From positions 1-64,000 of the forward strand of contig JARLIO010000052.1 in the NCBI GenBank assembly GCA_031291675.1: a DNA stretch of 64,000 nt, given 5' to 3'. Each line of letters begins with the position of its first letter. Within the stretch, counting starts at the first letter, position 1. The notes below the pieces were generated by a model. That model made no database searches. It was not told where the DNA came from and worked only from the letters and a program-made list of their open reading frames with translations. Position numbers and translations under genes: made by a program. The DNA comes from Azospirillaceae bacterium (GTDB lineage Bacteria; Pseudomonadota; Alphaproteobacteria; Azospirillales; Azospirillaceae). Below, one piece after another: positions 22,723 to 28,586 of the stretch.

Positions 22723-25236
22723 CTACCCCGCCTTTGCCGCCTGCGCGGGCTCCTTGAAGACTGCCACCGCGGGAACCGGCCCTTGATAAGGCTCGACCTC
22801 GACCATTGCGGTTTGCGCGCTGGTGGCCTGGGCCAGTTTGGATGTCGCCTCGCTCACGGTAAGCACGTTGACATCGCCATAACGGCAGAGCGTACCGGGT
22901 TGGCGCGGATCGACCGGGTCGTACCAACCGCCCTCGCTGATCCGGATCACGCCCGGGCGAACCTCGTCGGTGAGCTTGATCCCGACCAGGATCTGTCCAC
23001 GGTCGTTAAACGCCCGCGCCACGTCGCCGTCCTTCAGTCCTCGTGAGGCCGCATCCTTCGGGTTCATCCAGCACGGCTCGCGACCCGCGATCGCGTATTT
23101 CTCGCGCAGCGTGGTCCCGCAGAGCTGAGAGTGCAGACGATAGATCGGATGGTTCGACGTGATGTGCAGCGGATATTTCGTTGTCGGCCCGTCCAGGCGC
23201 TCCACCGGCTCCATCCAGGTCGGATGGGGCGGACAATCGTCATACTCCATTTTCGCGATGTTGTTCGAGAAGATCTCGATCTTCCCCGATGGCGTCCCCA
23301 GCGCGTTCAGCAGCGGATCGGCGCGAAAATCCGCGTACTGGACGTAGTCCTTCTGCGCGTCTTTCAGGGGAAAGGTCAGCGGTTCGTCGTGCTCCCAGAA
23401 CACGTCGAATACCGGCATCTCCATGCCCTTGGCCCGGGCCTCCAGCCGCGCGGACTCGTAGAAATTCCGGATCCAGTCCATCTCCGTCAGGCCTTCGGTG
23501 TATTCATAGCCCTTGCCCAGGCGCGCCGCGAGGTCGGCGAAGATATCGTAGTCGCTGCGTGCCTCGTACATCGGCTCGACCAGCTTTTTCATGGGAACAA
23601 TGGCGCGAAGCGCATAGTCCCCGACCTGCTCGATATCGTTGCGCTCGTAGGAGGTGGTGACCGGCAACACGATGTCCGCGAAACGCGCCGAGGGCGTCCA
23701 CTGGAAATCGTGGACGATGAACGTCTCGATCCGCTGCCAGGCTTCGACCATCTCGTTGCGGTTCTGGTGATGCACGAAGGGGTTACCCCCGGCCCAGTAG
23801 GCCAGCTTGATGTCCGGATAGGTGACTTTTGCGCCGTTGAACGCGATCGTCTTGCCCGGATTGAGCAACATGTCGACCACGCGGGAGACCGGGATCGCGG
23901 ATGCCGCGCCGCCGAGGCAGTAGGAGGTGGTGTTGCCGCGCGAACAACCCGGCGGCAGGTTCACCGGCGAACTCGCGGGGGTGTCGGTCATGCCCGGCAC
24001 GCTCGGTGAGGTGTGCGTCGGGGTGCCGGCATTGTAGTGATAGGCGAGACCGAAGCCGCCACCGGGCAGGCCGATCTGGCCCAGCATGGCCGAGAGCGTG
24101 ACGAACATCCACGGTGCCTGTTCGCCATGGTGCTGGCGCTGCGTCGACCAGCCCATCGCCATCATGGTGCGGTTTTGGGCGAAGCTGCGCGCCAGCTCCC
24201 GGAGCGTCGCCGCGTCGACGCCACAGATGGCCTGGGCCCATTCCGGCGTCTTGGGGATGCCATCGGTCTGGCCGAGCAGATAGGGCAGGAATTTCTCGAA
24301 GCCCGACGTGTATTTCGCCAGGAATTCCTTGTCGTGCAGATCTTCCACATAGAGCGTGTGGGCGATGCCGAGCATCATGGCAACATCGGTCTGCGGTCGC
24401 GGCGCAATCCATTCGCCGTTGAGATACTGGCAGGTCTCGGTCCGGACCGGGTCGACGCAGATGACGCGGACACCGGCCTTCTTGAGCTCCTCCAACCCTT
24501 CGAACACACCGTGATCGGGCACCATCCAGCCGATCTGGCAGGTGTTGATCGGGTTGCTGCCCCAGAACACCATGATCTTCGAATTTTTCGCGACATTCGA
24601 CCAGGTGGTGCATTGGTTGACGACACCAACCGAACCGACGACATAGGGCAGGATGACCGAGGCGGCGCCGTTCGAGTAGTTGCCGATGGAACTGGTGAAG
24701 CCGCCGCCCAGCTTGAGCAGGCGCCACAGCAGCACGCGGCAACTGTGAACCTTGCCCACGCTTTTCCATCCGTAGGAACCGCCATAAATCGCGCTGTGCC
24801 CGTGGATCTTGCGCACGCGCTCAAGTTCACCGGCGACGAGTTCGAGCGCCTTGTCCCAGCTCACCCGGACGAAATCACCGGTTCCGCGCCCGGCCGGATC
24901 GGCGCCCGGCCCCTGCTCGAGCCAGGCCCGCCGCACCATCGGGTATTTGATGCGCGTCGGTGAATAGATCGAGTTCATCATGCCTTGCAGCATGTCATTG
25001 GGATGCGGATCGCCTTCCCAGGGTGTCACCGTCTCGAGCCGCCCATCGGTGACCTGGCCGCGGAACACGCCCCAGTGACAGGCCGAGAGGATCGTCTGGC
25101 TCGTCGATGCGGCCCGCGCACCGCGGCTCAGCAGGGAGCCCCCCGAGGCCGCGAGAGCGGCCAGCAGCGCTGAATTCTTGAGAAAACCGCGGCGGCTGAC
25201 GCCGGCTGTTGCAGGACGGAAAAGAACATCAGACAT
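22723..25236 (-). CDS. torA: TMAO/DMSO-reductase family molybdoenzyme
   Basis: 837 residues from ATG 25236, which has AGGAG nine bases upstream; longer readings to 25308 are not needed. A twin-arginine signal (SRRGFLKNSALLAALAASGG) exports the folded enzyme to the periplasm. The catalytic subunit has no N-terminal iron-sulfur cysteines. GGSYGWKSVGKVHSC carries the serine that ligates molybdenum in the TorA/DorA/BisC group, and VFWGSNP, QCTTW and GGNPFVHHQNRNE are guanine-dinucleotide cofactor-binding segments. It would reduce N- or S-oxides as terminal acceptors. Upstream overlapping genes encode its chaperone and a c-type cytochrome. Whether TMAO, DMSO or biotin sulfoxide is preferred cannot be decided. 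Confidence 0.9.
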   Translation of the reverse strand: MSDVLFRPATAGVSRRGFLKNSALLAALAASGGSLLSRGARAASTSQTILSACHWGVFRGQVTDGRLETVTPWEGDPHPNDMLQGMMNSIYSPTRIKYPMVRRAWLEQGPGADPAGRGTGDFVRVSWDKALELVAGELERVRKIHGHSAIYGGSYGWKSVGKVHSCRVLLWRLLKLGGGFTSSIGNYSNGAASVILPYVVGSVGVVNQCTTWSNVAKNSKIMVFWGSNPINTCQIGWMVPDHGVFEGLEELKKAGVRVICVDPVRTETCQYLNGEWIAPRPQTDVAMMLGIAHTLYVEDLHDKEFLAKYTSGFEKFLPYLLGQTDGIPKTPEWAQAICGVDAATLRELARSFAQNRTMMAMGWSTQRQHHGEQAPWMFVTLSAMLGQIGLPGGGFGLAYHYNAGTPTHTSPSVPGMTDTPASSPVNLPPGCSRGNTTSYCLGGAASAIPVSRVVDMLLNPGKTIAFNGAKVTYPDIKLAYWAGGNPFVHHQNRNEMVEAWQRIETFIVHDFQWTPSARFADIVLPVTTSYERNDIEQVGDYALRAIVPMKKLVEPMYEARSDYDIFADLAARLGKGYEYTEGLTEMDWIRNFYESARLEARAKGMEMPVFDVFWEHDEPLTFPLKDAQKDYVQYADFRADPLLNALGTPSGKIEIFSNNIAKMEYDDCPPHPTWMEPVERLDGPTTKYPLHITSNHPIYRLHSQLCGTTLREKYAIAGREPCWMNPKDAASRGLKDGDVARAFNDRGQILVGIKLTDEVRPGVIRISEGGWYDPVDPRQPGTLCRYGDVNVLTVSEATSKLAQATSAQTAMVEVEPYQGPVPAVAVFKEPAQAAKAG

Positions 25237-25927
25237 CGGAGACTCCTGACAACAACTTCCGGTTTTCGTTCGGCCGATCTCCGCCCGATGAGGAGGCAAG
25301 GACGGCAACGAAAGCGTCGAGCAGCGTGAAGACGACAGCGTAGAAATCGGAAAGACCGGTGCGGCACACGGCCTGCGTCACCAGCGGAACCCAGCCCGAC
25401 AGGCGCCGGATCATCGGGGTGGTCAACGCGGCATGGCCCTGGCGGGTGGCCTCGGCCAGCGCGGCCAGCTCGATCGCCAGATGATCGGCGGGTTCGCGAC
25501 AGGTCCCACCCACCGAGACGTCAAGTGCCCGCAGCAGGGCGAGCATCTCTGTGAACGGCGCCTGGAACAGACGCCCGCCGGCTCCGGCATAGGCGCTCTC
25601 GCAGAGAGAAACGGCCTTTGGCCCGGACAGGCCGTCAAAGAGCAGGACGTAGCAATGGCCGAGCTGCCGTTCGATCTGCTCCGGCGCCTGGTCGCTCAGA
25701 AAGGGGATGATCGTCCGGGATGCCGCCGGCACCCCGAGCTCATCCGCCAGCCCGGCGACGAAAGCCAGCATCTCTTCGCTGCGATTGGCCCGCACCGCGG
25801 CGGCGTCCAGGGGACACAGCACGAGACGGCTGAACCAATCGGCGATCACCGCCTGGCCGAACGGATCGCCCGCGACCAGGATCCCCGCCGGGGGCCTCGG
25901 CCGCGGCGCCGACATCGTGACGGTCAT
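25229..25927 (-). CDS. torD: TorD-family molybdoenzyme chaperone
   Basis: 232 residues from ATG 25927, which overlaps the cytochrome stop as ATGA. Its end overlaps the torA start by eight bases. The C-terminal half shows the TorD/DmsD pattern, notably EPADHLAIELAALAEA and CYVLLFDGLSG followed by a helical bundle. TorD proteins bind the twin-arginine signal and help insert the molybdenum cofactor before export. Tight coupling with torA supports this. The first 90 residues are less typical, so the start could be internal. Confidence 0.8.
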   Translation of the reverse strand: MTVTMSAPRPRPPAGILVAGDPFGQAVIADWFSRLVLCPLDAAAVRANRSEEMLAFVAGLADELGVPAASRTIIPFLSDQAPEQIERQLGHCYVLLFDGLSGPKAVSLCESAYAGAGGRLFQAPFTEMLALLRALDVSVGGTCREPADHLAIELAALAEATRQGHAALTTPMIRRLSGWVPLVTQAVCRTGLSDFYAVVFTLLDAFVAVLASSSGGDRPNENRKLLSGVSDV

Positions 25928-27576
25928 GGCGCGGCCACGTCCTGAGCGTGGTTCTGCAGGTAGCCGAGCAGCAACCGGTACTGGTCGCCCGTCAGTGAGG
26001 TGTAGCGGCGCATCGCCCCCAGATTGCCAATCCACTGGTTGGCCAGAAAATGCTGCGGCTCCGGCAGGGAATGGCAGACGCTGCAGGTGCTGTTGAACAG
26101 GGTCGACGAGTAGCTCCACAGATTGGCAAGAGTAGTGTTGAGGCCGCTGTTATCGATCCAGAAGGTCAGGGTTACCGGCAACCAGGCGGGACCCGTGGCC
26201 GACGCCACTTTCTCACCCCGCTCGAGCCGGGCGATCGCGGCATCGTCGAGCACGGCGATCATCATCCGTTGGCCCTTCATGCCGAAGATCGCCGACGGGA
26301 CGCCATCAACCTGCCAACCCGCGAGCTGCACCTGCAGGAGATTGTCCTTGCGGCCGAGGATCTTCAACGAGGCCGTGGCCAGCACCTTGCCGGCCTCTCC
26401 GGTTTTCGCGCCGAGGCCCGTCGCGTCGAGATAGAACGGTTTGGTATTCACGACATAGGCCGTGTCCGCCTTGGCGATCGCCGCGGCATCCGCGGTCGGC
26501 AGGACAACGTCGTGGTGCTGCACCGGGACCATGACAATCTGCGGCGTGCGGTTCGGCTCGGGCTGACCCGGCGCCGGCCGGTCAACGCCGGGCACGGTTT
26601 TGAGATAGGCGGCCATGGCCCGCAGCTCGCTCGTCGGCAACTGGGACGTGTTCGCGACCACCTCGGCCATGTCACCGCCCGCCGCCTTGTTGAGCGGACC
26701 GATGCCGGTCTTGAGGTAATTCACGATGGAGTTCGCGGCCCAGAATTTAATGCCGGTGTCATCCTGGCTGATATTCGGGAAATTTCCGGTACCGTTGGGC
26801 GTGGGTCCGCCGCCAAAGCGCATCCCCACCTCGATCGCACCGGTAAAAGCCCGCGGCGAGTGGCACTCGGCGCAATGCCCTGCCGCTTCGACCAGATAGC
26901 GCCCGCGCGCCACAAGCTCGTCCGGCGTGCCCGGAGACGGGGCCGGCCGGGAGGCGACCGCCTGGTTTTCGATCGGCTGGCCGTCGAGGAAGGCCAGACG
27001 CCACAACCCGATGCCGCGACGCAGAGTGTAGGGAAACTTCAGGGCGTGAGGCGGCGCCTTGCCCGGAACCGGTTCCAGCGTTTTGATGAAAGCGAACAGG
27101 TCGCGCACATCGTTGGCGGTCAGGCGCTGATACGAGGTATAGGGAAAGGCCGGATAGAGGTTCTGCCCGTCCGGCATCACCCCGCCAGGGCCAACGCCTT
27201 CACGGACCGCCCGGGTGAATTCAGCCAGCGTCCAGGCGCCGATACCATCTTTCGGGTCGGGTGAGATGTTCGGCATCGAGAAGCGGCCAAATGCCGTGTC
27301 CAACGCCCGCCCCCCGCCCAGCTTCAGGCGATCCGTCTGATTGGGACTGGCATGGCAGGTGGCACAATCGGCGGCGGTGAAGATGAACTTGCCGTTCTCG
27401 AGATTTGCCGGGCCGGCATCGGCAACGTCGCGGGCCGGATGGGTCGCCGACCAGAGCCAGGGAGAGGTGAGAGCGAAGAAGCCAACGGCCCCGATCGCCG
27501 CCAGCGCGACGGCGCCGCTCAGCAGTTTTCTTCTCATCGACAAACGTATTTCGGTGTCTGGCATTTCACTCGTCAC
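25924..27576 (-). CDS. Triheme c-type cytochrome: diheme module fused to TorC C-terminal domain
   Basis: About 550 residues from GTG 27576, or 546 from ATG 27564. One N-terminal membrane anchor (about 15-40). Three haem sites: CATCH at 71-75, CAECH at 235-239 and CSVCH at 498-502. Residues about 55-330 resemble the class-I cytochrome domains of alcohol/gluconate dehydrogenase cytochrome subunits. Residues about 375-550 match the C-terminal domain of TorC/DorC (VQLAGWQVDGVP; CHSLPEPQHFLANQWIG; TSLTGDQYRLLLGYLQ). The NapC-like tetrahaem quinol-oxidising part of TorC is absent. The protein probably passes electrons to the periplasmic reductase encoded two genes downstream, but the donor must differ from canonical TorC. 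Confidence 0.85.
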   Translation of the reverse strand: MTSEMPDTEIRLSMRRKLLSGAVALAAIGAVGFFALTSPWLWSATHPARDVADAGPANLENGKFIFTAADCATCHASPNQTDRLKLGGGRALDTAFGRFSMPNISPDPKDGIGAWTLAEFTRAVREGVGPGGVMPDGQNLYPAFPYTSYQRLTANDVRDLFAFIKTLEPVPGKAPPHALKFPYTLRRGIGLWRLAFLDGQPIENQAVASRPAPSPGTPDELVARGRYLVEAAGHCAECHSPRAFTGAIEVGMRFGGGPTPNGTGNFPNISQDDTGIKFWAANSIVNYLKTGIGPLNKAAGGDMAEVVANTSQLPTSELRAMAAYLKTVPGVDRPAPGQPEPNRTPQIVMVPVQHHDVVLPTADAAAIAKADTAYVVNTKPFYLDATGLGAKTGEAGKVLATASLKILGRKDNLLQVQLAGWQVDGVPSAIFGMKGQRMMIAVLDDAAIARLERGEKVASATGPAWLPVTLTFWIDNSGLNTTLANLWSYSSTLFNSTCSVCHSLPEPQHFLANQWIGNLGAMRRYTSLTGDQYRLLLGYLQNHAQDVAAP

Positions 27577-28090
27577 CCGAAGGGGTCTGGCTCGGCTGTT
27601 GCCGTGATGGCGCGCAAATATGCTTACAGCCGTGAGGGCTTTTAGGCCCCGTTTCCGGCCCCGACAATTTCAATCTGTGCCCTGCGGCAAAAATGATAAG
27701 GGCTCTACCGACTTGGCGCTAAGCCTTGAAGACGCAGAGAAATCGTCTCATAAGCGGTCCCGGGCGACGTCGCGCCACACCAGAGTTGTGGCCCTTGCGT
27801 CCACCGCTACACCGCGGCGGCCCCGAGCAGGCGGGGTATCCTGACTGAGACTGGTCAGACCACGGCACAGGAGAATACGTCCACCCTCCTGACGTTTGGA
27901 GCGAGCCCCGGTCCCCCCTCGAACCTTTAAAAAAGGTTCCGGCCCGCCGCGGCTCGGCGCTCCCCGTGGCCCCGTTCAGCGTTACCGCGCCGGCGTGACC
28001 TAGCCGTCCGCGCCCCTGTCGAGGGTGAAGAACCGACTCGGGCGCCGAGCCCCGAACGTCGTCGTCGCCCGCCAACGCCCGCACATGAAA
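27577..28090 (-). other. 514 bp leader of the cytochrome-reductase operon, rich in hairpins
   Basis: No protein gene is supported. On either strand 27821-28075 folds into consecutive stems: GAACCTT/AAGGTTC (about 27920-27938) nested in GAGCC/GGCTC and GGAGC/GCTCC (27897-27964); CAGGAG/CTCCTG (about 27868-27891); CTCGG/CCGAG (about 28037-28049); CTGAC/GTCAG (about 27841-27858). As it lies upstream of the operon in the sense direction, it could be a structured leader or an independent small RNA. I could not match it to a known RNA family. Nearer the gene, TTGTCG and TAAAAG, 17 bases apart on the minus strand (about 27645-27675), may be a promoter. Confidence 0.4.
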
Positions 28091-28119
28091 CAGGCGCCGC
28101 ACAGCGATGGCGGCGCCTG
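28091..28119 (-). terminator. Intrinsic-type terminator after atpC
   Basis: CAGGCGCCGC (28091-28100) pairs perfectly over ten bases with GCGGCGCCTG (28110-28119), with a nine-base loop. On the minus strand it is followed by TTTC, a short U-run. It lies 45 bases after the atpC stop and most likely ends the atp operon. Confidence 0.7.
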
Positions 28120-28163
28120 CCAGGATCAACAGCGGGGTAACGGGACGTTGAAAAAGCTGCGGC

Positions 28164-28586
28164 TCAGTGCGACGTCGCGGCTGCGCTGTTGACGGCCTCC
28201 TGCTTGGCCTGCGCTACCGTCAACCGGACCTGGACCTCGGCGGACTCCTTGTCATCCTTGGCGTCGGCCAGATCTTCCTGCAAGGCCCGGATTTCCTCCT
28301 CGACCTTCGCCCCGTCGATCTCCGACACCGGCATCGCGTTCTCGGCCAGAACGGTTACGCCGGTTTCATTGACTTCGGCGAAACCGCCGGCGACGAACAG
28401 ACGGTCGGTGATCGCGCCATCCCGATAAACCGCGACGACACCCGGCCGGACCGTTGCGATGAACGGCGCGTGGCCGGGCAGAACACCGAAATCGCCTTCG
28501 CCGCCGGGGATGACCACCAGATCGACCGGCTGCGCGAACAGCAGCTTTTCCGGCGAGACCAGCTCGAATTCGACTTTGTCGGTCAT
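28164..28586 (-). CDS. atpC: ATP synthase F1 epsilon subunit
   Basis: A 140-residue protein. The beta-sandwich domain reads VEFELVSPEKLLFAQPVDLVVIPGGEGDFGVLPGHAPFIATVRPGVV, then a C-terminal two-helix tail (residues about 90-140). It forms part of the central rotor stalk and can inhibit ATP hydrolysis. Last gene of atpHAGDC, 53 bases after atpD. Length is normal for alphaproteobacteria. Confidence 0.96.
   Translation of the reverse strand: MTDKVEFELVSPEKLLFAQPVDLVVIPGGEGDFGVLPGHAPFIATVRPGVVAVYRDGAITDRLFVAGGFAEVNETGVTVLAENAMPVSEIDGAKVEEEIRALQEDLADAKDDKESAEVQVRLTVAQAKQEAVNSAAATSH

Follow-up and report, generated by a model that had tools for sequence, protein, structure and literature searches.

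A dihaem cytochrome module fused to the C-terminal domain of TorC as a probable electron donor for a clade of DorA-like reductases

What passes electrons to a TMAO/DMSO-type reductase when the cytochrome gene beside it does not encode a pentahaem TorC? In all characterised Tor/Dor donor cytochromes known to us, it is a NapC-like tetrahaem module that takes the quinol electrons. In the window analysed here (64,000 nucleotides of contig JARLIO010000052.1, from an Azospirillaceae bacterium), the cytochrome encoded next to torD and torA carries three CxxCH sites, at residues 71, 235 and 498, instead of five; this had been claimed from the bare sequence and was confirmed by reading of the ORF and its motifs. 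The three genes lie on the same strand, and the stop of the cytochrome gene and the start of torD share four bases, ATGA:

22723..25236, minus strand: torA/dorA-like bis-MGD S/N-oxide reductase, 837 aa (TIGR00509); its start overlaps the end of torD
25229..25927, minus strand: torD-like chaperone, 232 aa (PF02613; PRK04976 TorD, 9e-14); 4-nt overlap with the fusion gene
25924..27576, minus strand: fusion cytochrome, 550 aa from GTG, made of an N-terminal anchor, a CycG-like dihaem module and a TorC C-terminal (hinge and haem) domain
25930..26490, minus strand: TorC C-terminal region (hinge and haem domain), residues 363-549, with CxxCH at 498-502; assigned by TIGR02162 match and TorC-domain tree
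26578..27423, minus strand: dihaem class-I module, residues 52-333, with CxxCH at 71-75 and 235-239; M303 conserved, M101 invariant in fusions only
27436..27531, minus strand: uncleaved membrane anchor, residues ~16-37, then the interface segment TSPWLWSATHP (37-47)

The true start of the fusion gene is likely to be the ATG at 27537 (M14), giving 537 aa, because homologues begin there. A separate domain search placed residues 363-549 on positions 199-384 of the 387-position TIGR02162 profile (TorC, NCBIfam; E 9e-39), which bears out the TorC-like C-terminus of the original prediction. The corresponding stretch of E. coli TorC consists of the linker and the C-terminal monohaem domain, the proposed donor to TorA (PMC11727998). 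Over the whole protein the fusion scored 134 bits on TIGR02162, far below the cut-off of 478, because the tetrahaem half is absent. A Pfam search found two stretches of class-I cytochrome c but no NapC/NirT domain (PF03264) at E<=1, so the tetrahaem part has been replaced, as predicted, and a dihaem class-I module occupies residues 52-333. Since the NapC-like module that defines the pentahaem TorC family was searched for and is absent, the protein stands outside that family; it is a new architecture for a known function and very likely works as a pentahaem TorC does. An assembly or frameshift artefact was ruled out, as the fusion is found intact again in more than 30 independent records, always before torA.

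Where does the dihaem module come from? Over residues 52-333 the sequence aligns with haem domains 1 and 2 of the cytochrome subunits in fructose, alcohol and glucose dehydrogenases (E 4e-46 to 2e-42); the match stops at residue 333-339, and the third class-I haem domain is absent. An AlphaFold model of the fusion, of moderate confidence (pLDDT 74.5, weak at 134-145) and with the anchor helix at residues 7-36, has a fold matching 8gy2, 8gy3, 8jej and 7w2j, all of the dehydrogenase cytochrome subunit kind, and Foldseek aligned the dihaem module with trihaem dehydrogenase subunits at E 1e-17 to 4e-16. The suggested dehydrogenase-type N-terminus thus stands as a resemblance of sequence and fold. 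It does not stand as an origin: the nearest relatives are stand-alone proteins of the CycG type (41-43% identical), and the dihaem tree splits fusions and CycG-like proteins from the dehydrogenase trihaem subunits with support of 99/97. A dehydrogenase-subunit origin was, therefore, dropped in favour of CycG.

A gene for a class II-like small cytochrome, with its haem site at the very C-terminus, adjoins 24 of 25 CycG-like genes; its class II cytochrome c' identity was Pfam-confirmed in the one case checked. We take this pair to be the cycFG arrangement of Rhodobacter sphaeroides, and the Rhodovulum fusion is annotated cycG in its record. Throughout the window's family and its relatives, the CycG-type dihaem cytochromes (L005-L009, L011-L027, L029, L030) nearly always have a class II cytochrome c as partner, and some genomes hold more than one.

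The reductase encoded with the fusion is a full bisC-family member, scoring 1130 bits on TIGR00509 against a curated cut-off of 1017.55; it has a twin-arginine (Tat) signal, SRRGFLK, and the DorA-type Tyr114/Trp116 pair. It is the sole bisC-family reductase over the cut-off in the host genome, where no TorC-type domain other than that of the fusion was found, leaving the fusion as the only candidate donor of the TorC kind in this host. Tyr114, Trp116 and the Ser Mo ligand are kept in 30 of 30 fusion-linked reductases, and the Tyr is missing from the E. coli TorA-like group. S-oxide reductases have Tyr114 and E. coli TorA does not (PMC5122715), and because the fusion-linked enzymes keep it, their substrates probably include S-oxides as well as N-oxides. 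The 'N-oxide' respiration of the original prediction was in this respect too narrow.

Upstream of the fusion gene we found no FNR-type boxes or sigma-70 promoters, and no regulator gene at its start in the window. About 0.6 kb separates the cassette from an F-type ATP synthase operon upstream of it (epsilon subunit ORF 28164-28586; interval 27577-28586). A divergent hybrid histidine kinase (PAS, HisKA, receiver, Hpt) and an OmpR-type response regulator adjoin most fusion operons of one sub-clade (L044-L046, L048, L051, L052, L054-L057, L059, L060, L063, L064, L066, L068, L081, L082); both are absent beside the window operon and the Halomonas fusion operons. The fusion gene of Commensalibacter intestini A911 has an in-frame TGA in the hinge (L040:7144-7146), which marks either a pseudogene or a draft error.

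The window fusion is not unique: about 34 complete relatives, some of them plasmid-borne, were found in Alpha-, Beta- and Gammaproteobacteria, and each immediately precedes torD-torA or torA. Scanning 84,980 species genomes with two short patterns from conserved segments, a search that samples a subset and is biased towards those segments, gave 30 full-length or near-full-length fusions. The hosts include Bradyrhizobium (79% identical), Commensalibacter, Bartonella MAGs, Azospirillum, Rhodovulum, Halomonas/Vreelandella, Tropicimonas, Oricola, Rhodopseudomonas, Lautropia, Salipiger, Marinobacter and Paraburkholderia, among others. One more, in G667, was added by a search with the C-terminal part, and four plasmid records (Neorhizobium, Cereibacter, Rhodovulum, Azospirillum) also carry the fusion. 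The gene order fusion-(torD)-torA is found in all 30 scan hits, G667 and the four plasmid records, with torD lying between fusion and torA everywhere except in the Cereibacter record.

The fusion is nonetheless a minority form overall beside pentahaem TorC/DorC, and the case named as refuting the original prediction, a fusion that is the usual form in the group, does not hold. Among TorC-domain genes, an evenly drawn class sample (385 genomes) held one fusion genome versus about six others, and an evenly drawn phylum sample (398 genomes) two fusions versus roughly 25 others. The few TorA-bearing genomes read in the window's own family divide roughly in half, a bisC-family reductase occurring with the fusion in three (G000, G046, G052) and with pentahaem TorC in three (G017, G042, G058).

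Other arrangements of the TorC domain were seen as well. Directly before torA, G760 encodes a TorC C-domain protein that has one haem and a signal peptide of its own (L174:3959-4606); this is a third donor architecture, presumably with the quinol-oxidising part encoded elsewhere. Pentahaem TorC-like cytochromes with a TorC C-domain and no TorA within about 4 kb occur in the window's family (L142 and L145, in G053 and G055), and no bisC-family reductase over or near the cut-off was found in either genome; similar loci, again with no TorA within about 4 kb, are L141, L143, L144, L146-L150 and L152. At L178 and L180, TorC-like pentahaem genes adjoin 12-haem cytochromes instead of torA.

The phylogenies of the three parts agree. 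The dihaem tree unites the fusions in one clade (support 100/100), with two anchored CycG-like proteins, L005/L006, as its sister group (94/95), and the 30 fusion-linked enzymes form one clade in the reductase (TorA) tree (support 99). The TorC-domain tree, too, groups the fusions in one clade (99/95) close to DorC-like proteins of Alphaproteobacteria, and a single orphan, L160, is nested inside; the orphan accounts for the AU test result for strict fusion monophyly (p = 0.054). L160:3954-4715 is a stand-alone TorC C-domain protein of 254 aa with one haem, encoded in G032, where no bisC-family reductase over the cut-off was found, and is best read as a derivative of the fusion after later loss of the dihaem part. 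Apart from L160, then, the distinct branch that had been suspected is recovered in every tree. Since the dihaem, TorC-domain and reductase trees agree, a single origin of the fusion is most likely, with fusion and reductase passed on together as a co-inherited cassette. In all three trees the window groups with Bradyrhizobium Leo170, Commensalibacter and Bartonella, and not with Azospirillum members of its own family, a placement that points to horizontal transfer of the whole cassette.

The N-terminus differs between the fusions and their CycG relatives. The fusions have an anchor followed by T[SA]PxxW, mostly TSPWxWSATHP, whereas most CycG relatives have a cleavable-looking signal peptide. 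Mean majority conservation among fusions is 0.89 for the interface segment, 0.58 for the helix before it and 0.50 for the segment after it, although part of the TSPWLWSATHP motif served as a search pattern, so that its conservation is partly selected. Fusions found without the interface pattern read TAPSTWRLLHP (G667), TSPWTWSLIHP (Neorhizobium) and, in Rhodovulum sulfidophilum, only TSPWTWSA. As to haem ligands, M303 is likely to serve haem 2. M101 is invariant in fusions and absent from relatives, and where AdhB has Met, at position 144, both fusions and CycG have Phe, which hints at a changed haem-1 environment. Candidate sixth ligands of haem 1 are M101, found only in fusions, and H177, found in fusions and most CycG proteins.

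From what would this module draw its electrons? MenB passed the cut-off in 0 of 17 fusion hosts versus 9 of 19 canonical-TorC hosts (p = 0.001, a suggestive difference, though confounded by phylogeny), and MqnC in 0 of 16 fusion hosts; in one fusion host, G809, a MenB-like protein fell just below the cut-off (315 vs 343 bits). Because no fusion host tested passes either cut-off, the relevant quinol is ubiquinol, and the 'rather than menaquinol' of the original prediction is not supported as it stands. The potential of cytochrome c is +230 mV or more, those of TMAO and DMSO are +130 mV and +160 mV, and that of ubiquinol is about +100 mV. Transfer from cytochrome c to TMAO or DMSO is uphill, which makes cytochrome c a poor donor; from ubiquinol it is downhill.

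These potentials bear on the first donor that had been proposed, the bc1 complex, which would feed the dihaem module directly or via soluble cytochrome c and so place the reductase downstream of bc1. Soluble cytochromes are common electron-exchange partners of class-I dihaem modules, class II cytochromes adjoin the CycG relatives, and bc1 cytochrome b was present in 17 of 17 fusion hosts tested. However, bc1 is expected in these lineages anyway (15 of 19 canonical-TorC hosts, p = 0.11), the conserved membrane-interface segment would be needless, and the final transfer would run uphill on textbook potentials. We consider this route unlikely, and another donor is possible. The other early suggestion, a soluble dehydrogenase, found no support either, as no dehydrogenase lies beside the operon in the annotated records read.

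A separate quinol dehydrogenase or small cytochrome (CycF-like class II, or NapC-type encoded elsewhere) might instead reduce the fusion, which would then be an anchored relay only. The usual neighbour of CycG is a class II cytochrome c, and the stand-alone TorC C-domain beside TorA in G760 suggests that this domain can use a separately encoded donor. Against this, no such gene was seen beside fusion operons in the annotated records read, and the fusion, like DorC, has its own anchor; we judge a separate donor improbable.

We lean, with modest confidence, towards the fusion module itself oxidizing ubiquinol at the membrane interface and passing the electrons through the dihaem part and the TorC haem to the Mo centre. 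In acetic acid bacteria, the module's homologues of the ADH subunit II type hand their electrons straight to ubiquinone (PMC9171043), and it is for this reason, together with the failure of the hosts at the menaquinone-gene cut-offs, that direct ubiquinol oxidation is favoured. The uncleaved anchor and the conserved interface segment, set against the cleavable-looking signal in most soluble-looking CycG relatives, would also count for it. On the other side, CycG relatives adjoin class II cytochrome c, and the ancestral partner of the module may have been a soluble cytochrome; we also count against it the moderate confidence of the structural model, the missing tetrahaem TorCN, the presence of bc1 in every host tested and a haem-1 ligand that is so far candidate-level. 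Somewhat more tentatively, the CycG-like module may by itself be a ubiquinol dehydrogenase, a class-I dihaem cytochrome with one helix that convergently replaced the NapC/NrfH-type module.

The same dehydrogenase homology could be turned around: in dehydrogenases the dihaem homologues give their electrons to ubiquinone (PMC9171043), and DorA-type enzymes may act on protein methionine sulfoxide (PMC7402097), so that the complex might run mainly oxidatively or in sulfoxide repair and not in respiration. This seems very improbable. Both the reductase and the C-terminal domain come from the TorC/DorA lineage, in which the known members are reductases; the Ser Mo ligand and the Tyr114/Trp116 pair are kept in every fusion-linked reductase; and the TorC C-domain is the proposed donor to TorA (PMC11727998).

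With direct oxidation of ubiquinol as the preferred reading, the fusion protein would be the membrane-bound cytochrome that supplies electrons to a DorA-like S/N-oxide reductase in the periplasm, taking the role of DorC/TorC with another front end. A single N-terminal helix would anchor it, the CycG-like dihaem module would oxidize ubiquinol at the membrane interface, and electrons would pass from haem 1 to haem 2 and on to the TorC-type C-terminal haem, in that presumed order. This last haem would dock on the reductase and reduce its Mo centre, the substrate being DMSO, TMAO, methionine sulfoxide or similar. Support at the sequence level covers the domain make-up, the operon, the single origin, the co-inheritance with a reductase clade, the lack of a NapC module and the lack of standard menaquinone genes in the hosts.

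We found no described dihaem-TorC fusion in the open-access literature searched. The results suggest a second way of wiring S/N-oxide respiration to the quinone pool. A clean swap of single origin, spread through three proteobacterial classes as a mobile cassette of three genes, would show the C-terminal domain of TorC to be an exchangeable reductase plug. If the CycG-like module does oxidize ubiquinol, at least two unrelated quinol-oxidizing front ends are used on the same TorC docking domain, and the fusion would offer a simple three-haem system for testing quinol oxidation by a class-I cytochrome. For annotation, TorC-domain fusions labelled 'cytochrome c' or 'cycG' mark the DorA-like reductase clade.

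Among known systems, CycG of the cycFG pair shares the homologous dihaem module, and L005/L006 are also anchored. CycG, however, a dihaem membrane cytochrome with class II cytochrome c554 as its neighbour, ends after haem 2 without a TorC domain; it lacks M101 and the TSPWxWSATHP segment, and its class II partner gene is replaced, beside the fusion, by torD/torA. The AdhB and FdhC trihaem subunits of PQQ/FAD/Mo dehydrogenases (8gy2, 7w2j) share the fold of the first two haem domains and are more distant from the fusion than CycG. Their third domain is not TorC-like, the Met of their YPAMPY motif is Phe in the fusion, a dehydrogenase gene adjoins them in place of torD/torA, and electrons run through them from substrate to quinone, exchange with ubiquinone being known.

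Pentahaem TorC, DorC and TorY (TIGR02162) are, like the fusion, membrane-anchored c-type cytochromes in an operon with torD and torA/dorA, and have a homologous hinge and C-terminal haem domain (E 9e-39); they differ in having a NapC-like tetrahaem module and five haem sites where the fusion has its dihaem class-I module and three. In E. coli it was the tetrahaem TorCN, not the C-terminal half, that bound TorA strongly (PMC11727998), and, since the fusion has no tetrahaem half, docking in its system must differ from that between E. coli TorC and TorA; the reductase clade may have co-adapted. Compared with other DorA, TorA and TorZ enzymes of the bisC family, the window reductase is a full member, with its Tat signal and the Tyr114, Trp116 and Ser residues kept, and the fusion-linked reductases form a clade of their own (99) that is tied to the fusion cytochrome.
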